From the IMG/VR virus record IMGVR_UViG_3300010885_023020, positions 1-25,804 of that record: a stretch of 25,804 nt of DNA, one strand, 5' to 3'. The stretch comes from a virus. This document shows positions 4,387 to 18,880 of the stretch, piece after piece (the first letter of the stretch is position 1; every line of letters starts with the position of its first letter). The notes under the pieces are model-generated. The model was given only the letters and a program-made list of their open reading frames with translations. It was not told where the DNA came from and did not search any database. The translations under genes and the position numbers were made by a program.

Positions 4387-4403
4387 ACCGTGGTAATCAT
4401 TGT

Positions 4404-4410
4404 TATTTAT
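4404..4410 (-). promoter_or_regulatory. Candidate late promoter ATAAATA
   Basis: The minus strand reads CATAAATAAC just after the glutaredoxin stop, 18 bases before ATG 4386. It would drive the possible 59-aa gene and the membrane protein gene late in infection. Confidence 0.45.
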
Positions 4411-4417
4411 GGTAGTA

Positions 4418-4654
4418 TCAGACAATTTGCTTCTCTTTTAGAAACTTAACGGTATCTGTGCATCCACCAAGTTTTTGATCATCACAAAGAACTTGAGGAA
4501 ATGTAGAACCTTCACCAAACTCTGAATAGAATTCGTCTTTGGTAAAATCTTCTCCCAAATTATACACCACAAAGTTGTTTCCTGTCAACTCTAGGATTTG
4601 TTTGACTTTATAACAATGTGGGCAATCTTCTTTGGAATAAACGGCAAAATTCAT
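4418..4654 (-). CDS. Glutaredoxin
   Basis: A 78-aa protein of usual short glutaredoxin length. The dithiol active site CPHC is at residues 11-14 after a first beta strand, TFPQV at 51-55 holds the cis-proline that binds glutathione, and GGCTD at 63-67 is the C-terminal glutathione contact. It reduces disulfides in the cytoplasm and in phages most often serves ribonucleotide reductase (T4 NrdC is the model). No nrd gene is seen in this window. An imperfect late box (TATAAATT) lies about 20 bases before the ATG. The coding sequence contains a perfect sigma-70 promoter pair that can serve the genes downstream. Confidence 0.92.
   Translation of the reverse strand: MNFAVYSKEDCPHCYKVKQILELTGNNFVVYNLGEDFTKDEFYSEFGEGSTFPQVLCDDQKLGGCTDTVKFLKEKQIV
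4559..4588 (-). promoter_or_regulatory. Sigma-70 promoter inside glutaredoxin (TTGACA-18-TATAAT)
   Basis: On the minus strand the -35 TTGACA (4588-4583) and -10 TATAAT (4564-4559) are both perfect, with an 18-base spacer. The start of transcription would be near 4552, giving an early transcript for the genes 4386 to 3078. Confidence 0.55.
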
Positions 4655-4674
4655 AATTGTTTAATATCTGTAAT

Positions 4675-4682
4675 AATTTATA
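4675..4682 (-). promoter_or_regulatory. Imperfect late box TATAAATT before glutaredoxin
   Basis: TATAAATT differs by one base from the T4 late box TATAAATA and lies about 20 bases before the glutaredoxin ATG, just after the terminator at 4686-4710. Confidence 0.3.
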
Positions 4683-4685
4683 TAA

Positions 4686-4710
4686 GAAAAAAGAGGAGAT
4701 TTCTCTCCTC
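4686..4710 (-). terminator. Rho-independent terminator
   Basis: A 7-bp stem GAGGAGA/TCTCCTC with a GAAA tetraloop, followed on the minus strand by six to seven T. It ends the candidate small RNA and any transcript coming from the late gene at 4818-5363. Confidence 0.85.
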
Positions 4711-4786
4711 CTATTATACCACCACAATACCTTTCTCACCACAGAAAGGATCTTCATTTCCCAAAGATACAAGGAATGTTGAAGAC
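4686..4786 (-). ncRNA. Candidate structured small RNA, about 100 nt
   Basis: A perfect sigma-70 promoter just upstream and a strong terminator frame about 100 bases without a usable open frame: the only ATG, at 4792, lies between the -10 box and the expected start. On the minus strand the RNA would fold into three hairpins. The first is TCTTCA/TGAAGA (4751-4785) with an inner TTCC/GGAA. The second is CCTTTCT/AGAAAGG with loop GTGGTG (4730-4749). The third is the terminator. A 19-base linker with GTGGTGG is left single-stranded. It could act in trans on host or phage mRNA, or be an attenuated leader of glutaredoxin, whose ATG is 32 bases beyond the terminator. I recognise no known RNA family. 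Confidence 0.5.
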
Positions 4787-4792
4787 CTTCAT

Positions 4793-4821
4793 ATTATATG
4801 GGATTTTGAGTCAGGTGTCAA
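4793..4821 (-). promoter_or_regulatory. Perfect sigma-70 promoter (TTGACA-17-TATAAT)
   Basis: The -35 TTGACA (4821-4816) overlaps the TGA stop of the upstream 181-aa gene; the -10 TATAAT is at 4798-4793 and the spacer is exactly 17 bases. Start of transcription near 4786. It matches the host consensus at all twelve bases, as expected for a strong early phage promoter. Confidence 0.8.
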
Positions 4822-5363
4822 GTAGCAAAAATATTCACAAAGTCTTCGGGCAGATTACAAGACTCTGCAAGAGTTGTGAATTCGGCAATTAATTCGGCAG
4901 GAACTGTGGTTGCGTTTTCAATTGCGGTCCAAGTATTCTCAAAATCTTGATAGTTTCCAGATTCAATAAGAAGTAGAGTTGCAGGAAGTGCCGTAGCTGC
5001 AACAGGTGCAATACCAATCAATTGACCAACAAAGGTATTGAGTAGAACAGAAGCAACCGCAGATTGCTTAAATGTATTCCAATCAGGACCACCAGGTGGT
5101 TGTGGTTGAGGTTCTGGTACAGGAATGGTTGCTACGATTGCATCAAATTCTTGTTTGGTGATAATCTCAAGACCTGGATCAACTTCGGTGATTAGAGTAT
5201 TATCTGGAACCGTTGAAAGGCAATAATCAACTCCACGATCATCAGTTAACCAATAACGAACATCCAATCCTGAAATGCCAGGATGAGTTTGTAGGGAACC
5301 GTTTTGACCAGGTTCAGTTAGATATTCTCCATTACGAACCCAATAATGCTTTAAGTATTGCAT
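4818..5363 (-). CDS. Probable structural/fibre-associated protein (181 aa)
   Basis: Two parts can be seen. Residues 1-80 (MQYLKHYWVRNGEYLTEPGQ..., HPGISGLDVRYWLTDDRGVDYCLS) look beta-rich. A Pro/Gln linker (PVPEPQPQPPGGP, 81-93) joins them to a helical C-terminal part (94-181) with SAVASVLLNTFVGQLIGIAPVA and the end CNLPEDFVNIFAT. The helical part resembles small proteins encoded next to phage fibre genes (from memory). A late box CTAAATA lies 28 bases before the ATG, and it is the last gene of the late block before a terminator. The likely role is a tail-fibre accessory or virion protein; the function is not proven. Confidence 0.7.
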   Translation of the reverse strand: MQYLKHYWVRNGEYLTEPGQNGSLQTHPGISGLDVRYWLTDDRGVDYCLSTVPDNTLITEVDPGLEIITKQEFDAIVATIPVPEPQPQPPGGPDWNTFKQSAVASVLLNTFVGQLIGIAPVAATALPATLLLIESGNYQDFENTWTAIENATTVPAELIAEFTTLAESCNLPEDFVNIFAT

Positions 5364-6065: not shown

Positions 6066-6072
6066 TATTTAT
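6066..6072 (-). promoter_or_regulatory. Late promoter box ATAAATA
   Basis: The TAA stop of kelch gene 1 is part of the box (TCA TAA ATA), which is 22 bases before the prolyl-hydroxylase ATG. Confidence 0.6.
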
Positions 6073-8972
6073 GAGGATGCTGCGTTGGTTGTTGAACCTA
6101 GTAAATATCTTGATGCACTTAAAGGACCTCTTATAGAATTTATAGTATCACTTGAATAATCTAATCTTAAAACCGCAGTAGAAAATCCAGAAACAATATA
6201 CCCATATTGAGAAGTTCCTGTTGCCGCTCCCTTTCCTGGAGATACGATTAAATTTTGCCTTGAGGATGCAGTTGCTGTATCATTTGAATAATCAATTCTT
6301 ATTGATAAAGAAGAACCATTGTATGATGCTGGTGCTCCCCCGCCACCAAAATAATATCCAAAATTTGAATTTCCTGTTGCAAATAGATATGCATCTGCTC
6401 TAGTCAATGGTCCTCTAATACTTGTTTTGCTTAAATCATTTGCATAAGTTATTCTTTCTATTGATGAAACTAAAGATGGACTTGATGAAGGAACGTCACC
6501 ACCCCCAATATATCCAAAGTTAGCATTTCCAACTCCAGCACCATTAATACTCAATCTTGCAGCAATTAAAGGACCTCTTGCACTAGCAGTTGCACTATCA
6601 TTACTATAATCTATCCTATCCACCGTAGAGAAATTTCCCGGTCCTCCTCCAGCAGCAAAATAACCAAAATTATCATTACCACTAATTGAAGCACCATAAA
6701 GATGGAATTGTGTTAAATTTCCTCTTCTTGATGCAATTGCTAAATCATTTGAGTAATCAATTCTTTCTACGGTAAGAGCATCAGCATATGGATACCCAGC
6801 AGAAACATAACCATAATTAGTATTTCCTGTTGCTTGAGAAGCAATTCTTAATACTACTGTAGGTCCTCTTTGAGATGCTGTTGCGGTATCGTTTGAAAAA
6901 TCTATTCTATCTACTCTTGTTAAATAAACATTACCACCAATACCACCATTTGCAAAATACCCATAAGACCCCAGTACTCTCTTAAATGGCATATTAGAAC
7001 TTAAAGTATTAGAATCATTAAAGGTAATTTGATTTTGTAGAACAGTTGGTAGAGGATTGGTGAAATAAATTGGAGCACCGCCATAAGCAAGTGGGGAGGT
7101 TGCTGCGAGTCTAGATTTTGCAGTTGATAGTGGACCTCTTGCGGAAACTGCTGCAGTATCGTTTGAGTAGTTGATGCGGTCTACTGTTGATCTATATGTT
7201 ACTCCATCTGTTATTCCGCCACCAAAATAACCAAAATTAGAGTTTCCTGTTCCCGCTTGTCCTTCTTTATTAGAACTCAATGGACTACGAATAACAGTGT
7301 TAGAAGTATCATTTGAGTAGTCTAATCTATCAACAATAGATAAATTTGGAAATCCACCTCCAGCAAAATACCCCAAAACATTATTTCCAGTTGCTCCGTG
7401 TCCAAATTTAGCGCCACTAGAGAACGGATTTCTACTCAATGCAGTTGCAGTATCATTAGAATAATCTATTCTATCCACAAAACTATAAAATGAACCGCTT
7501 CTACCCCCACCAAAATATCCAAAATTTTGATTTCCAGTTGCTCTTAGGTTATGTTTACTGATAGTTAATGGTCCTCTAACTGATGCAGTTGAAGTATCTG
7601 TTGAGTAATCTATTCTATCTACCGTTGAAATGGGGTCTGGGTATCCTCCCCCATAATAACCAAAATTTGTATTTCCAGTAGAACCCATTAAAGATCTTGC
7701 TAAACTTAATGGTCCCCGTAGCACTGCGTTTTGAGTGTCGCTGGAATACTCTAGTCTTTCTACTGAAGATAATAATAATGCTTCTTCTCCAGCAAAATAT
7801 CCAAAACTGCCATTACCCGAAGAACCCAAAGACCTTCTTGCTATGCTCAAAGCACTACGAACACCTGCAGTTGCAGTATCATTCGCATAATCTACCTTAT
7901 CAATTGTTGCAAGATTATTGGTTCCATCAGTTCCACCACCAAAATACCCGGCATTAGGAACTGTGGGGAAGGTAAAGTTTGATGCGAAGGCAGATTGTGG
8001 AGAACCACCGAAGGATGCAGAGGAGGTTGCTGCCAAATATCCTCTTGCAGAACTTAATGGTCCTCTTACTGATGCCGTTGTTGAGTCATTGGAAAAATCT
8101 ATACGGTCTACTCCCGAAAATGATCCAGGAGCACCACCACCAAAATAACCAAAATTAGAGTTTCCTGTTGCTGCTAGTCCATATCTTGCTTGACTTAATG
8201 GACCTCTTACTGATGCTGTTGCTGTATCATTAGCAAAATCAATTCTATCCATTGTTGATCTTGGACCAGGAAAACCACCACCAAAATAACCAAAGTTGAA
8301 GTTTCCTGTTGCTGCTAGTCCATATCTTGCTTGACTTAATGGACCTCGTATCAATACATTTATAGAATCATTTGAGAAAGTTATTCTTTCAACTCTATTC
8401 GCAAAACTGTATCCACCTCCAAAATAGGCATAATTTGAATTGGAAACTCCTCTTGCTGCAAAATTTACAGTAGTAGATGTTCTTATATTTAATCTAGTTT
8501 GTGTAACCAAATCATTAGAATAATTTATTCTTGATAGTAAGGAAGTTGATTCATTAACCGCACCATACCAAACATAACCATAATTTATATTTCCTGTTGC
8601 TGAACTCTCTCCTGCTGCTGCTATTAAATTACCACGTACAGATGTATTTGTTGTATCATTAAAATAATTTAGTCTACTTACAGTAGATTGACCTACTCCG
8701 TTAGAAATTCTACCTCCATAAAACCAACCGAAATTGGTATTTCCTGATCCAGATAATTGAAAAACTGCTAAATCTAAATTTCCTCTTACTGATGCAGTTG
8801 AGGTATCATTAGTATAATCAATACGATCTACTGTTGAAAATGCCCCACCTCCACCCCCAAAATACCCATACTCCCTATAAGATTCCCGTGTCTTATCGGC
8901 AACCAACCCGACAAGTTGTCTTTTTCTTATATCTCCAATTGAAAAAACTCCACGAGTATTAGTTTCTGCCAT
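6069..8972 (-). CDS. Kelch-like triple beta-propeller protein 1
   Basis: A 967-aa protein made almost wholly of repeats of about 46-50 residues with the pattern GYFGGG, then STVDRIDYSNDTATASVRGPLS, then an AATGNSNF end. The order glycine doublet, Tyr/Asp strand, Arg and next hydrophobic strand is that of kelch blades. I count 18 repeats in three sets of six (about residues 36-340, 341-660 and 660-967). Sets 1 and 2 end with a changed repeat lacking the usual GNSNF (SASFGGSPQS, PLAYGGAPIY) followed by a linker, and set 3 opens with FKRVLGSYGYF. The N-terminal 35 residues (MAETNTRGVFSIGD...) have no repeat and end in RESYREY. There is no signal peptide. It is a likely virion surface or fibre protein. 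A late box precedes it, with a sulfotransferase gene upstream and a hydroxylase gene downstream. Confidence 0.88.
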   Translation of the reverse strand: MAETNTRGVFSIGDIRKRQLVGLVADKTRESYREYGYFGGGGGAFSTVDRIDYTNDTSTASVRGNLDLAVFQLSGSGNTNFGWFYGGRISNGVGQSTVSRLNYFNDTTNTSVRGNLIAAAGESSATGNINYGYVWYGAVNESTSLLSRINYSNDLVTQTRLNIRTSTTVNFAARGVSNSNYAYFGGGYSFANRVERITFSNDSINVLIRGPLSQARYGLAATGNFNFGYFGGGFPGPRSTMDRIDFANDTATASVRGPLSQARYGLAATGNSNFGYFGGGAPGSFSGVDRIDFSNDSTTASVRGPLSSARGYLAATSSASFGGSPQSAFASNFTFPTVPNAGYFGGGTDGTNNLATIDKVDYANDTATAGVRSALSIARRSLGSSGNGSFGYFAGEEALLLSSVERLEYSSDTQNAVLRGPLSLARSLMGSTGNTNFGYYGGGYPDPISTVDRIDYSTDTSTASVRGPLTISKHNLRATGNQNFGYFGGGRSGSFYSFVDRIDYSNDTATALSRNPFSSGAKFGHGATGNNVLGYFAGGGFPNLSIVDRLDYSNDTSNTVIRSPLSSNKEGQAGTGNSNFGYFGGGITDGVTYRSTVDRINYSNDTAAVSARGPLSTAKSRLAATSPLAYGGAPIYFTNPLPTVLQNQITFNDSNTLSSNMPFKRVLGSYGYFANGGIGGNVYLTRVDRIDFSNDTATASQRGPTVVLRIASQATGNTNYGYVSAGYPYADALTVERIDYSNDLAIASRRGNLTQFHLYGASISGNDNFGYFAAGGGPGNFSTVDRIDYSNDSATASARGPLIAARLSINGAGVGNANFGYIGGGDVPSSSPSLVSSIERITYANDLSKTSIRGPLTRADAYLFATGNSNFGYYFGGGGAPASYNGSSLSIRIDYSNDTATASSRQNLIVSPGKGAATGTSQYGYIVSGFSTAVLRLDYSSDTINSIRGPLSASRYLLGSTTNAASS
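8162..8206 (-). repeat. 45-bp repeat, copy 1 of 3
   Basis: Identical DNA in kelch gene 1 (twice) and kelch gene 2 (once), coding for RGPLSQARYGLAATG plus a base. Identity at silent positions points to recent recombination. Confidence 0.85.
8303..8347 (-). repeat. 45-bp repeat, copy 2 of 3
   Basis: The second copy in kelch gene 1, one blade (141 bases) from the first and identical to it. Confidence 0.85.
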
Positions 8973-10498: not shown

Positions 10499-10505
10499 TA
10501 TTTAT
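10499..10505 (-). promoter_or_regulatory. Late promoter box ATAAATA
   Basis: It follows the TAA stop of kelch gene 2 directly (TAATAAATA) and is 24 bases before the ATG of the DUF6445-like gene. Confidence 0.6.
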
Positions 10506-13387
10506 TAGGAATTTCTGGCGTTGCTACTTGCCTGTGCCCCATTTGTAGCATATGGCAAGAAGCATCTAGTTGAAGTATTAACGGTATCATTAGAATATGT
10601 CATTCTTTCTATATTACTTAATCCTTCACCAAATCCCCCTCCACTATAATATCCAAAGCTTTGATTACCAGTCCCAGTTACTGATGTCTTTCCAAGAGAA
10701 AATGGGCTTAGACTTATATTACCTCTTAAACTAGCATTAGTAGTATCATTTGAAAAATCTAATCTTTGAATTAACGTAACATTTGACGGTGATAATGAAG
10801 GATTATTTCCACCAATCCAATATCCAAAATTATTATTATTACTCCCCCCACAAGAATTAACTTGAACTGCTAATTTTCCTCTATTGCTAGCAATAACATT
10901 ATCATTTGAAAAATTTATTCTTCTGATAGTACTTGTATTTCCTGCTGCAATCCAACCATAAGGTATATTTGACAATCCATAATCACCAAATGAAACTGAA
11001 TCGGTATTTCCTCTGGCAACAGGACTGCCAGTATCATTTGAGTAATTTAATCTTTCGATACGAGTAGTACCCCCTAATGTGGCAGGAAATCTATACCCTC
11101 CGCCAAAATAACCGAAATTATCATTATAAACAGTGAACCTTGAATAAGTACCAATTAAAGAACTTAATCCACCAAATAGTGTGGGATTTGTTGTGTCATT
11201 AGAATAATCAATTCTTTGCAAGTTAGTATTATTAACAGCAGTATTCATATAAGAAAAATTATTATTTCCTACACAGTTATAAAATGTTGCACTAGAAGCA
11301 ACAATTAAACTTCCTCTATTTGAAGCATTTGCTGTATCATTTGAGTAATCTATTCTAGAAACATTTGTTCTTCCTGTATCAGTACCACCCGCAAAATACC
11401 CATAAGATCCCAGTGCTCTCTTCTTCACACTATAATTGGTAGTATCTTCAATTCTTCTCATTGACTGAATATCAAAGAAGGTTGAAGTTGCTTGGAAGTC
11501 CGTTGCACCACCGAATGCCGTTGGTGAGGTTGCTGCTACATAGCTTCTTGCGGAACTCAATGGTCCTCTTACAGATGCTGTTGCAGTATCATTTGAATAA
11601 TCTATACGATCTACTATTGAATATAATGGACTTCCTGCTTGAGGAATTCCTCCGCCAAAATAACCAAAGTTAGAATTTCCTGTTGCAGTTAAATCTCTTC
11701 TTCCTTGTGATAATGGTCCTCTTGTAGAAACTGCAGTGGTATCATTAGAATAATCAAGACGATATATTATTGAAGTTTCTGCTGGTCCAACATATCCAGT
11801 AGAAAAATATCCAAAATTAGAATTTCCTGTTGCTGCTAATGAATATGCATTGTTTAATAAAGAATTACGATTTAATGCAGATGAATTATCATTTGAATAA
11901 TTTATACGATCTATTGTTGATACTGCATTAGGTGCCCATCCACCAGCATTATATCCAAAATTAGAAGTTCCTGTTGCTGCTAGTCCATATCTTGCTTGAC
12001 TTAATGGACCTCTAGGTAATCCTATAGATGTATCATTTGAATAGGATATTCTATCTACTGATGATAAATTAGCAGGAAACCCTCCACAAAAATAACCAAA
12101 ATTAAGATTTCCTACTGCAGAATGTTGTGATTTTGATAAACTCAATACACCTCTAACCAGTGTTGTTGCTAAATCGTTAGTATAATTTATGCGGTCTATT
12201 ATTGATGTGGTGGGATTACCACCACCAAAATAACCAAAGTTAGAGTTTCCCGTTGCTCCCATACCATATCTTGCTAGCGTTAGTCGTCCTCTTACTGATG
12301 CGGATGAAGTATCACTAGAATAATCTATACGATCTATTGTTGATGCACTTCCAGGAAGATTACCACCTCCAAAATACCCAAAGGGTTTTGGAAACACTCC
12401 GTATTGTGAGATTGGAGAACCACCGAAACTGTGGGAGGAGGTTGCTGCAATTGTTAAATCGACATTTGATAATGGTCCACGAACACTTGCGACCACTAAA
12501 TCATTACTATAATCTATTCTATCAACAGTAGAAACTGCTTGACCTTGAGAACCTGTAGTAGATCCCCCAACAGAGTAACCAAAATTAGAATTTCCTGTAG
12601 AACCAGGCCACCAAAATTTTGGAAAACTTAAAGATCCTCTAATTGATAATAATGCAGTATCATTAGCATAATTTAAACGATGTGATGAAGATGTTCCCCA
12701 ACCTGTTAAAAAATATCCAAAATTATTATTTCCAGTCGCACTAAAACTAAAATTAGAATTTTGTATATTACCTCTAGATAATGCTGTTGCACTATCATTA
12801 GAATAATCTATACGGTCTACTGTAGATCCTCCAGATGAGGCTTGTCCGCTCCCACCAAAATAACCAAAGTTGGAGTTTCCTGTTGCAAGTATACCTCTTG
12901 ATATTGTTAAAGGACCTCTAATTGATGCTGTGGTATTATCATTGGAATAATTTATTCTTTCTGTGGTAGAAATATATGCAGGTGTAGCACTAATAATTCC
13001 CCCCGCAATATATCCAAAGTTAGAGTTTCCTGTTGCTCCTGTAAACAATCTTCCAATTGTTAAACCCCCCCTAGATAAAATATTAGTATCATTAGAATAA
13101 TCAATACGTTTAATATCCGTTATATTATTAAATCCAGATTTATTACCTCCCATAATATATCCAAAATTAGAATTGCCTGCCCCACCACTATAATATTGAT
13201 TTATACTCGCAACTCTTCTATTTGTAGTTGTTGTATCGTTTGAGTAATCAAGTCTATTTAATGGTCCACCAATTCCTAGAAAATACCCATACTCTCTATA
13301 AGATTCTCTATTCCTATTAGGAATATCTCCACTTAAATCTTTATTATAATAAGTGCTTAATGAAAATACTCCAGAATTATTAGGCAT
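10505..13387 (-). CDS. Kelch-like triple beta-propeller protein 2
   Basis: A 960-aa paralog of kelch protein 1. I take ATG 13387 (MPNNSGVFSL); an in-frame TTG at 13399 would add four residues and is less likely. After a 33-residue start ending in RESYREY come 18 repeats in three sets of six. Set 1 ends at SHSFGGSPIS, set 2 at PTAFGGATDF followed by a long linker to VKKRALGSYGYF, and set 3 runs to the C-terminus SSNARNS. Typical blades are GYFGGGNPTTSIIDRINY and RGPLSSARSYVAAT. Set 3 is the most divergent (blade 2 opens SYMNTAV and lacks the glycines). It is a probable virion surface or fibre protein. The gene sits between the degenerate oxygenase-like gene upstream and the intact one downstream, with a late box 28 bases before the ATG. 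Confidence 0.88.
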   Translation of the reverse strand: MPNNSGVFSLSTYYNKDLSGDIPNRNRESYREYGYFLGIGGPLNRLDYSNDTTTTNRRVASINQYYSGGAGNSNFGYIMGGNKSGFNNITDIKRIDYSNDTNILSRGGLTIGRLFTGATGNSNFGYIAGGIISATPAYISTTERINYSNDNTTASIRGPLTISRGILATGNSNFGYFGGSGQASSGGSTVDRIDYSNDSATALSRGNIQNSNFSFSATGNNNFGYFLTGWGTSSSHRLNYANDTALLSIRGSLSFPKFWWPGSTGNSNFGYSVGGSTTGSQGQAVSTVDRIDYSNDLVVASVRGPLSNVDLTIAATSSHSFGGSPISQYGVFPKPFGYFGGGNLPGSASTIDRIDYSSDTSSASVRGRLTLARYGMGATGNSNFGYFGGGNPTTSIIDRINYTNDLATTLVRGVLSLSKSQHSAVGNLNFGYFCGGFPANLSSVDRISYSNDTSIGLPRGPLSQARYGLAATGTSNFGYNAGGWAPNAVSTIDRINYSNDNSSALNRNSLLNNAYSLAATGNSNFGYFSTGYVGPAETSIIYRLDYSNDTTAVSTRGPLSQGRRDLTATGNSNFGYFGGGIPQAGSPLYSIVDRIDYSNDTATASVRGPLSSARSYVAATSPTAFGGATDFQATSTFFDIQSMRRIEDTTNYSVKKRALGSYGYFAGGTDTGRTNVSRIDYSNDTANASNRGSLIVASSATFYNCVGNNNFSYMNTAVNNTNLQRIDYSNDTTNPTLFGGLSSLIGTYSRFTVYNDNFGYFGGGYRFPATLGGTTRIERLNYSNDTGSPVARGNTDSVSFGDYGLSNIPYGWIAAGNTSTIRRINFSNDNVIASNRGKLAVQVNSCGGSNNNNFGYWIGGNNPSLSPSNVTLIQRLDFSNDTTNASLRGNISLSPFSLGKTSVTGTGNQSFGYYSGGGFGEGLSNIERMTYSNDTVNTSTRCFLPYATNGAQASSNARNS
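11968..12012 (-). repeat. 45-bp repeat, copy 3 of 3
   Basis: The copy in kelch gene 2, identical to the two copies in kelch gene 1 about 3.7 kb away. Confidence 0.85.
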
Positions 13388-13407
13388 TATAACCAACAAA
13401 GATTCTA

Positions 13408-15946: not shown

Positions 15947-15953
15947 TATTTAT
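15947..15953 (-). promoter_or_regulatory. Late promoter box ATAAATA
   Basis: Shares the TAA stop of kelch gene 3 (TCA TAA ATA) exactly as at the end of kelch gene 1; 25 bases before the glycosyltransferase ATG. Confidence 0.6.
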
Positions 15954-18880
15954 GAGGATCTTGCGTTGGTTGTTCCTATTGACAGTGAAACATATGGAGC
16001 ATTTGTCTGCCTTATACTTGCAGCAACCAAATCGTTAGAATAATTTATTCTTTCAATTTTAGAACTTCCTTCTCCCATAGAAAACCAACCATATGTTTCA
16101 TTTCCTGTTCCTGCAAAATAATTTTTCACTTCGTTTAATGAACCTCTTGTAGAATTTGTTATCAAATCATTTGAAAAATCTATTCTTTCTACTGAAGTAA
16201 CTATAACTCCATTTGGAGCACCAGGAACTCTACCACCAGCAAACCAACCATAGTTACTATTATATGATGTTGCATATCTTCCCCTTTGGACAGTCATTTT
16301 TCCTCTTAATGGTGTGGTAATTATATCATTACTAAATGAAACTCTATTAATAATTGTTGTATCACCTTCAAAAACTCCATTAGTAGTGACACCAGATGCA
16401 CCACTACCAAAATATCCAAATGTATTTCCAAAAACCATACCAGACATAGAACTTCTTGCCAGAGATAAACTTCCTTTGGTTATAGCAGTATTCAAATCAT
16501 TTGAAAAATCTAACCTATCAACTGTGCTTTTAAAACCCACACCATTTTGGAATCCTCCCCCCACATATCCATAGTTATTATTTGAAAAAGAACCTGATAT
16601 TGCTCCTCTAGATACACTCAAGCTTCCACGAATAGAAGATGATGAAGAATCATTACTATAATCTATTCTTTGAATTAATGATGTGGATGGATAGGAAAAT
16701 GCTCCACCACCGGCAGCATATCCATAATTATTATTTCCAAATCCACACATAAATTCTTGTGTAGAAAGATTCGCAGTTAGAATTGGTCTAGTTACTAGTG
16801 TTGTGTCATTTGAAAAATCTATTCTATGAATATTAGAATAAGTAAATCCTCCATAAAAATACCCATAAGACCCTAATACTCTCTTAAATGGCAAATCTAA
16901 AGTATTAGAATCAATCCACTGTGTTGCTGCACGAATATAAGAAGGAAGTGGGTCCACTGCGGTATTTGGAGCACCTCCGTATGCTTGTGAGGATGATGTT
17001 GCTAGTTGCCTTTTACTTTGAGATGCTTTGCCCCTAACAGTTGCAGTTTGGGTATCATTAGAATAATCAACACGATACAAATCACTAAAATTTACTGCAC
17101 CATCAAAACCAAGTCCAAAATATCCAAAGTTAGAATTACCTGTTGCTACAACTTGTATGGATACTGTGAGTGGACCTCTAACGCTTGCGGTTGAGGTATC
17201 GTTTAAATAATCAATACGATTTACTATTGAAGAGTTAGGTGCTCCTCCAGCAACATAACCAAAGTTATTATTACCAGTAGAACCAAAATTAGAAATACTA
17301 TATGAGAGTGGTCCACGAACTGATGTATTTGTAGTGTCGCTTGAATAGTCTAAACGATCTACTGTAGAAAAATATGGTGGCGGAGAAGGAGTTCTTCCTC
17401 CCATAAAGTAACCAAAGTTAGAATTTCCTGTAGCAGTATGTCTATATCTAGCGGCACTTAAAATAGATCTAGTAAGTGCAGTTACAGTATCATTACTGTA
17501 ACTGATACGATCTATTGTTGATAATACTGGAGATGAACCGCCACCAAAATAACCAAAATTGGAATTGCCCGTTGCTCTAGTTTCTCTTGCTATACTTAAT
17601 GGACCACGATTTGATGTAGATCCAGTATCATTTGCATAATCTATACGATCTACTCTTGATACTAATCCAGGTGCAGCAACACCACCGCCAAAATAACCAA
17701 AATTATTATTACTTACACCTGTTGGTTCATAAATTGTAGACTGTAAAAATGTTCTAACTACGGCAGTATTTGTATCATTTGCATAATCTATACGGTCTAC
17801 TGTTGATATGTCTGTAGGAGAAGAATTAACACCACCAGCAAAATACCCAAAAGGAGCAGTGGAAGTCCAAGGTGCTCCAAGATACGAAACAGGAGAACCA
17901 CCGAATGATCCCGAAGAAACAGAACAACCATAAGCGGTTCCTATATTTAATGGACCTCTAAATGATGCATTTACAGTATCATTAGAATAATCTATTCTTT
18001 CTACATCACTTCTACCGTAATATCCACTTGGTTGGTAATTAGTACCAGCACCAAAATATCCAAAATTTGAATTTCCACAAGCAGAACCACCCCACCTACC
18101 ACCATTTAGAGGACCACGAATAGAAGCATTTGCCGTATCATTTGCATAATCTATACGACATATTGTAGTTCTTCCTGTGGGTAATGCAGCACCACCACCA
18201 TAATATCCAAAGTTATTATTTCCAGTTGCTTCTACGCCACCATTAAAACTTGGAATAGTTATAAATCCTCTAAATGATGGAGTGATATTATCATTAGAAA
18301 AGCTTATTCTTTCCACTGATGTTAAATTATTTCCACCACTAGAAATATATCCAAAATTTGAATTATTAGATACTGCTGGTTTTTGTCTAGCAATAGTTAA
18401 AGATGCTCTTGTTACTAATGGAACTAAATCATTTGAATAGTCCATTCTATCTACTGATGTTAAATAAGTAACATTTGGAACCAATTGATAATATTGCAAT
18501 CCCCCAACCCAATAACCAAAGTTATTATTTCCAACACCGCTATTACTCTGACGACCAAAAGGTAAGTTTGCCCTTCTTGAATGTGTAGTATCATTAGAAT
18601 AATCTAATCTTTGAATACCAGAGTAATCCACATAACCAGAAGAAAAATATCCAAAATTTTTGTTTCCCACAGTCCCAGAACGATGAACGAACATTCCAGT
18701 ATTTCTAATTGTAGCAGTTGCAGTATCATTAGAAAAATCTACTCTATCTAGAGGTATTGACTCACCACCAAAATACCCATACTCCCTATAAGATTCTCTA
18801 TTTCTTTCTACCCACTGCCCTTCCTTTTGGAGTTCGTAAACCTCACCAATACCAAAGATATTAGTTCTAATGTCTGCCAT
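15950..18880 (-). CDS. Kelch-like triple beta-propeller protein 3
   Basis: A 976-aa paralog of the two other repeat proteins. The 34-residue start (MADIRTNIFGIGEVYELQ...) differs from theirs up to the shared RESYREYGYF. Then 18 repeats follow in three sets of six. Set 1 ends at SGSFGGSPVS plus linker, set 2 at SQAYGGAPNT plus a linker that ends in PFKRVLGSYGYF (also in protein 1), and set 3 ends TTNARSS, like TTNAASS in protein 1. A typical blade opens GYFGGGSSPVLSTIDRISY. Loops between strands vary in length (for example VGGLQYYQLVPNVTYLTS), as expected for exposed propeller loops. It is a probable virion surface or fibre protein. Its ATG overlaps the stop of the glycosyltransferase gene upstream (TAATG), with GGAG as ribosome binding site and no separate late box, so it is co-transcribed with it. 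Confidence 0.88.
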   Translation of the reverse strand: MADIRTNIFGIGEVYELQKEGQWVERNRESYREYGYFGGESIPLDRVDFSNDTATATIRNTGMFVHRSGTVGNKNFGYFSSGYVDYSGIQRLDYSNDTTHSRRANLPFGRQSNSGVGNNNFGYWVGGLQYYQLVPNVTYLTSVDRMDYSNDLVPLVTRASLTIARQKPAVSNNSNFGYISSGGNNLTSVERISFSNDNITPSFRGFITIPSFNGGVEATGNNNFGYYGGGAALPTGRTTICRIDYANDTANASIRGPLNGGRWGGSACGNSNFGYFGAGTNYQPSGYYGRSDVERIDYSNDTVNASFRGPLNIGTAYGCSVSSGSFGGSPVSYLGAPWTSTAPFGYFAGGVNSSPTDISTVDRIDYANDTNTAVVRTFLQSTIYEPTGVSNNNFGYFGGGVAAPGLVSRVDRIDYANDTGSTSNRGPLSIARETRATGNSNFGYFGGGSSPVLSTIDRISYSNDTVTALTRSILSAARYRHTATGNSNFGYFMGGRTPSPPPYFSTVDRLDYSSDTTNTSVRGPLSYSISNFGSTGNNNFGYVAGGAPNSSIVNRIDYLNDTSTASVRGPLTVSIQVVATGNSNFGYFGLGFDGAVNFSDLYRVDYSNDTQTATVRGKASQSKRQLATSSSQAYGGAPNTAVDPLPSYIRAATQWIDSNTLDLPFKRVLGSYGYFYGGFTYSNIHRIDFSNDTTLVTRPILTANLSTQEFMCGFGNNNYGYAAGGGAFSYPSTSLIQRIDYSNDSSSSSIRGSLSVSRGAISGSFSNNNYGYVGGGFQNGVGFKSTVDRLDFSNDLNTAITKGSLSLARSSMSGMVFGNTFGYFGSGASGVTTNGVFEGDTTIINRVSFSNDIITTPLRGKMTVQRGRYATSYNSNYGWFAGGRVPGAPNGVIVTSVERIDFSNDLITNSTRGSLNEVKNYFAGTGNETYGWFSMGEGSSKIERINYSNDLVAASIRQTNAPYVSLSIGTTNARSS

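Follow-up and report, generated by a model that had tools for sequence, protein, structure and literature searches.

Small RNAs are, to our knowledge, hardly known in picocyanobacterial phages. Sponges of the CsrB/RsmZ type and multi-seed small RNAs display one short motif repeatedly. The RNAs catalogued in cyanophages, i.e. PhotoRC-II, wcaG, manA and the glutamine riboswitch (PMC2864571, PMC9964418), are structured and mostly form the leader of the gene that follows. T4-like phages have promoter-early stem-loop elements (PeSLs) that occur in dense arrays, as described in PMC4503421, which cites Arbiol 2010 and Comeau 2014. Cyanobacteria make Yfr1 and Yfr2, abundant small RNAs whose unpaired motif is ultraconserved (PMC2190773, PMC6778093).

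The RNA gene described here lies in the window, the whole 25,804-nucleotide stretch of IMG/VR record IMGVR_UViG_3300010885_023020 that was analysed. Like the catalogued cyanophage elements it is a structured RNA in cyanophages, but none of them matches it (Rfam 15). It resembles the CsrB/RsmZ-type sponges and multi-seed RNAs in presenting a short motif both in a loop and in a linker, although unlike those sponges its motif is GGUGGU and the copies number only two. It is short, with hairpins, a terminator and a strongly conserved unpaired motif as in Yfr1 and Yfr2, but differs from these in motif and layout and in giving no family match. With PeSLs it shares a sigma-70-type early promoter, a close stem-loop terminator, an intergenic position and location at a site of gene exchange; it differs, as far as the secondary description in PMC4503421 goes, in its conserved covarying body and fixed loop motifs, and in that a record usually holds one strong match to it (two in G062). 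The locus is probably an autonomous gene for a small RNA, carried by T4-like cyanophages akin to Synechococcus phage S-SRM01; the RNA would be expressed early and act in trans through GGUGGU.

Promoter, fold and downstream neighbour

4793 to 4821, minus strand: sigma-70 promoter of the RNA (TTGACA 4821-4816, 17-nt spacer, TATAAT 4798-4793)
4687 to 4786, minus strand: small RNA of ~100 nt, putative start at 4786, ending within the T tract
4750 to 4786, minus strand: hairpin 1, two helices and a 9-nt loop UGUAUCUUU
4730 to 4749, minus strand: hairpin 2, 7-bp stem with hexaloop GUGGUG at 4742-4737
4713 to 4729, minus strand: linker with the second GGUGGU at 4723-4718, single-stranded in most relatives
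4687 to 4712, minus strand: intrinsic terminator, AGGAGGAGA-GAAA-TCTCCTCTT, with T tract 4692-4687
4674 to 4682, minus strand: candidate late-promoter-like motif TATAAATTA, ahead of glutaredoxin
4559 to 4588, minus strand: second perfect promoter, TTGACA-18-TATAAT, inside the glutaredoxin gene
4418 to 4654, minus strand: glutaredoxin gene (PF00462, E 4e-11), the usual downstream neighbour

The first-pass annotation, which gave no strand, had described a twelve-of-twelve sigma-70 promoter followed by a non-coding RNA of three hairpins, the last a terminator with a GAAA loop, and had pointed to a GTGGTGG linker. All of this proved correct, promoter and RNA being on the minus strand. The window contains a single exact TTGACA-17-TATAAT (4821-4793), 100 dinucleotide shuffles contain none, and chance origin is thus not expected. 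Hairpin 1 spans 4786-4750, hairpin 2 4749-4730 and the GAAA-loop terminator hairpin 4712-4691, followed by T6; no sign of coding was found, reading frames between the conserved blocks not being maintained among relatives; and the linker GGUGG(U) and the GUGGUG loop of hairpin 2 are the conserved unpaired motifs. The fold predicted from 4786 has an energy of -34.0 kcal/mol (z ~ -3.5) that none of 200 shuffles equalled, and a fourth helix, 4729-4712, appears only in the minimum-energy fold of the window itself and is absent from relatives.

The promoter matches at 12/12 positions in 42 and at 11/12 in 9 of the 51 distinct relatives in the first collection, with constant geometry in all 51 (17-nt spacer, 6 nt from the -10 box to GTCTT), figures that somewhat overstate conservation since the collections required parts of the promoter; the second sample, picked by promoter and first five RNA bases, is unusable for measuring it. 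Judged from the sigma-70 consensus only, the RNA would be expressed early.

The promoter inside glutaredoxin averages 0.35 mismatches over 94 distinct genes versus 2.53 +/- 0.115 after synonymous resampling, a control whose exact significance is rough because it pools within-gene codons and ignores relatedness; its codons Leu23 TTG and Tyr31 TAT are each present in 94/94. These values indicate selection at synonymous sites. This promoter probably starts early transcription of the downstream genes, for which the RNA's own promoter would therefore be unnecessary. The motif TATAAATTA is present in many relatives with and without the RNA; before S-SRM01 genes it occurs only twice versus 0.3 expected, the related TATAAATA 27 times versus 1.3. 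Elsewhere in the window a glutamine riboswitch (RF01739, 2980-2922 minus, 52.4 bits), for which relatives L016 and L078 give matches too, is the sole Rfam 15 family, and three paralogous repeat proteins of ~970 aa (phrog_19111; 6069-8972, 10505-13399 and 15950-18880 minus) carry repeats like GYFGGG...RIDYSNDTATASVRGPL.

Relatives and covariation of the stems

BLAST located the RNA in S-SRM01 (Kyanoviridae), a freshwater phage isolated from a Singapore reservoir and cultured on Synechococcus sp. KCZYC6, again ahead of glutaredoxin, the predicted first base (G of GUCUU) being at 10977 of that record; with two variants as queries, S-SRM01 was the sole carrier among 50,697 phage records, marine phages included. 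Searched by glutaredoxin, IMG/VR yielded 80 near loci, 37 with the whole RNA element and three with part of it, and a pattern search on hairpin 2 and linker, with TATAAT required by the pattern itself, gave 100 contigs. A lone match in the genome collection, from a Bacteroidales assembly, lacks every stem of the RNA and looks like chance; it was not accepted as a host or prophage copy. In pairs of phages that agree at only 30-39% of fourfold sites in glutaredoxin, identity is 79-80% for the RNA and 52-56% for the promoter spacer; the 150 bases upstream of the promoter are at 51%, about the level of unrelated DNA in this alignment.

The first-pass annotation had set compensatory stem changes among relatives as the test of the RNA and a covariance search of cyanophages as the means. 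A covariance model (R1) built from seven sequences recovered the RNA in S-SRM01 and >100 IMG/VR contigs (E to 1e-26), matched 77 places among 100 loci, and scores the window at 107.5 bits over 4786-4688; weak matches in other records are to terminators only. Compensatory changes are present in both samples. In the model alignment of the first sample 97.8% of cells are paired and 21 of 27 pairs change on both sides, none of 500 shuffles reaching any of the measures, and slid controls pair 62-69% (53-72% over both samples). The second sample, chosen by promoter and first five RNA bases only, has 30 distinct rows, window included, among the matches listed; it is 98.1% paired, with both-side changes in 20/27 pairs, including 7/7 of hairpin 2. 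All nine terminator pairs change on both sides in each sample (the second among the matches listed), and hairpin 1 (helices 1-2 of A3/A4) is paired in 95.8-99.2% of cells, with the same limit on the second sample. Because relatedness of the sequences inflates shuffle tests, most weight goes to the slid controls and to the second sample.

Since the model alignment is fitted to structure, hairpin 2 was independently anchored by its loop alone; at stem positions 4 to 7, 53-56 of the 56 distinct sequences then have either U-A or C-G, the two pairs replacing each other. The hexaloop stays GUGGUG in 54/56 distinct RNAs of the first sample while the stem covaries, and in 29/30 of the second among the matches listed. 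These data indicate a real RNA family whose structure has been kept by evolution across >100 virus fragments. Rfam 15 has no family at or near the RNA, none scoring above gathering threshold, and we therefore class it as a new small-RNA family, encoded by phages and outside the catalogued ones. As to a possible RNA anti-CRISPR (repeat mimic), the CRISPR-repeat families of Rfam, which are those compared, gave no match in 4400-5000 at E <= 10. A shortened variant of 79-80 nt occurs in L078 (3863-3942 plus); its linker and hairpin 2 are merged, and hairpin 2 and terminator therefore compete for the same bases.

In the window the linker reads GGTGGTATAAT and includes an extended -10 box, which raises a nested promoter as the reason for its conservation: TGnTATAAT would initiate the glutaredoxin mRNA within the terminator stem, allowing it to escape the terminator. 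The sequence is present in ~54/56 RNAs of the first sample and precedes S-SRM01 genes 11 times versus 2.2, and the terminator, -12.9 kcal/mol when whole, falls to -1.8 if transcription starts 7 nt after TATAAT. However, the first sample was mostly picked by a pattern containing TATAAT, and in the second sample, free of that bias, TATAAT is found in 4/30 RNAs but GGUGG(U) in 27/30, among the matches listed; the RNA motif is therefore the conserved thing. The linker's apparent conservation as an extended -10 box was traced to this sampling bias, and a nested promoter, which we regard as highly improbable, holds at best for a subset of the RNAs, window included.

Genomic setting: leader, cassette or autonomous gene

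Of the first-pass interpretation, one half stood: a phage-encoded small RNA agrees with what many phages show, namely a conserved geometry of the promoter, stems that covary and an intrinsic terminator. The other half, an attenuator controlling glutaredoxin, was rejected on context. As a cis-acting leader the RNA would be a regulated attenuator in which hairpins 1 and 2 sense a signal and admit polymerase into glutaredoxin. Most copies do lie before glutaredoxin, which counts against an autonomous RNA: 97 of 98 informative copies in the first sample are ~50 nt ahead of it, the exception having an HNH endonuclease gene (phrog_953, E 1e-84) inserted between, and 25/30 precede it in the second sample, among the matches listed, with two before an HNH gene and three elsewhere. 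However, the RNA gene is not bound to one downstream gene, nor always directly upstream of glutaredoxin. The HNH gene separates the two in L112, L396 and L414, full copies adjoin other genes, and whole-record searches put the distance between off-locus RNAs and glutaredoxin at 4 kb in G064, ~35 kb in G062 and 54 kb in G063; a second, promoterless copy in G062 is 7 kb from glutaredoxin and adjoins a collagen-like tail-fibre gene. By eye, promoter-like sequence of the next gene follows three of the four off-locus copies, those in L372 and L436 and the promoterless one of G062. About half of the closest glutaredoxin loci are without the RNA, and the conserved promoter within glutaredoxin can serve downstream genes without that of the RNA. 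The terminator stem is strong in all folds, an unsystematic look at which revealed no antiterminator pairing, the overlap of hairpin 2 and terminator in the L078 variant being the sole exception. On this evidence a cis-acting leader is rather improbable, and the copies beside other genes and the intervening HNH genes argue for an autonomous unit.

The same loci bear on a cassette of PeSL type, in which promoter and terminator would act as an insulator and recombination anchor at a hypervariable edge and the RNA would be a by-product. Genes upstream of the RNA vary freely between phages, which places the unit at the edge of an exchanged region: immediately ahead of the promoter the DNA of different phages is unrelated, whereas RNA and glutaredoxin are conserved. 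Presence of the RNA is patchy on the glutaredoxin tree, with 11 changes, at least four of them forced by well-supported branches. Decayed and lost copies show the RNA to be dispensable, a point against the autonomous-RNA reading. Chimeric copies also favour the cassette: in L089 (12583-12649 minus) promoter, hairpin 1 and half of hairpin 2 are fused at GTGGTGG to a glycine-rich gene, whereby exchange at the edge of the region is shown, and in L147 (4388-4479 minus) the RNA has lost its terminator by recombination. But promoter plus hairpin would suffice for an insulator, yet here constraint extends to hairpin 1, the GUGGUG loop and the motif in the linker. Of the PeSL features, early promoter and intergenic stem-loop are present and many copies per genome are absent, the RNA being usually single-copy as against the dense arrays described in PMC4503421. 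We doubt the cassette reading for these reasons and continue to prefer an autonomous small-RNA gene.

Possible action through the GGUGGU motifs

Comparison of sequences establishes the promoter, fold, terminator, strong constraint, GUGGUG loop, linker GGUGG(U) and independence of any single neighbouring gene. In the autonomous small-RNA model, host sigma-70 polymerase would initiate at 4786 and transcription would end at the terminator, yielding an RNA of ~100 nt with two hairpins and the terminator that would be made early in infection and act in trans. Its two GGUGGU sites may serve as paired seeds that recognise ACCACC-type sites in mRNAs of host or phage; alternatively, they may be bait for a G/U-binding protein. 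Trans action through these motifs is what we best infer, and it stays at that strength because tests of phage leaders, kissing loops, GUGGUG loops and Yfr1 all failed.

CACCAC occurs in six S-SRM01 leaders versus 1.0 expected, but an RNA-lacking phage has four versus 0.8, so that the enrichment is unspecific and was discarded as a sign of targets. Two S-SRM01 genes (89350 and 90334 plus; L227) have a common leader, CAGTTCACACCACTGAACC, directly before ATG, in which a hairpin with a CACCAC loop complements hairpin 2 of the RNA (-25.1 kcal/mol). These kissing-loop targets were rejected: relatives' leaders are unstructured and C/A-rich, other phages have that gene family without the RNA, and the pairing is not conserved in RNA-carrying phages. 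GUGGUG hexaloops elsewhere were likewise set aside as a recurring partner, extra ones occurring in S-SRM01 only. S-SRM01 (MW015081.1) also has, at ~88413-88570 plus, an 11/12 promoter, ~110 non-coding bases and a terminator hairpin with a GUGGUG loop; this element has no relatives among the 50,697 phage records.

That the RNA sponges or mimics host Yfr1/Yfr2 is scarcely credible. A minority of the variants (UGUGAAGAG) comes close to complementarity with the Yfr1 motif ACUCCUCACAC (PMC2190773), but the duplex energy with single-stranded Yfr1 does not surpass that with shuffled Yfr1 (a median 0.32 of shuffles equally good), on which ground Yfr1 sponging was rejected; the window has no Yfr1 family match, and on direct reading the RNA lacks the Yfr1 layout of ACUCCUCACAC between two hairpins. 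A wider role, as an early sponge whose GGUGGU would capture a cyanobacterial RNA-binding protein or as a global regulator blocking many C/A-rich (ACCACC) leaders at once, is unlikely but conceivable; if so, the RNA would help the phage to take over host gene expression.

The RNA is widespread, structurally well supported and absent from Rfam. Its cultured carrier S-SRM01, growing on Synechococcus sp. KCZYC6, makes it directly testable, and the constant motif defines a precise mutation to make. If the RNA acts in trans, it would be a case of RNA-based takeover by a phage, in a host group of ecological importance.
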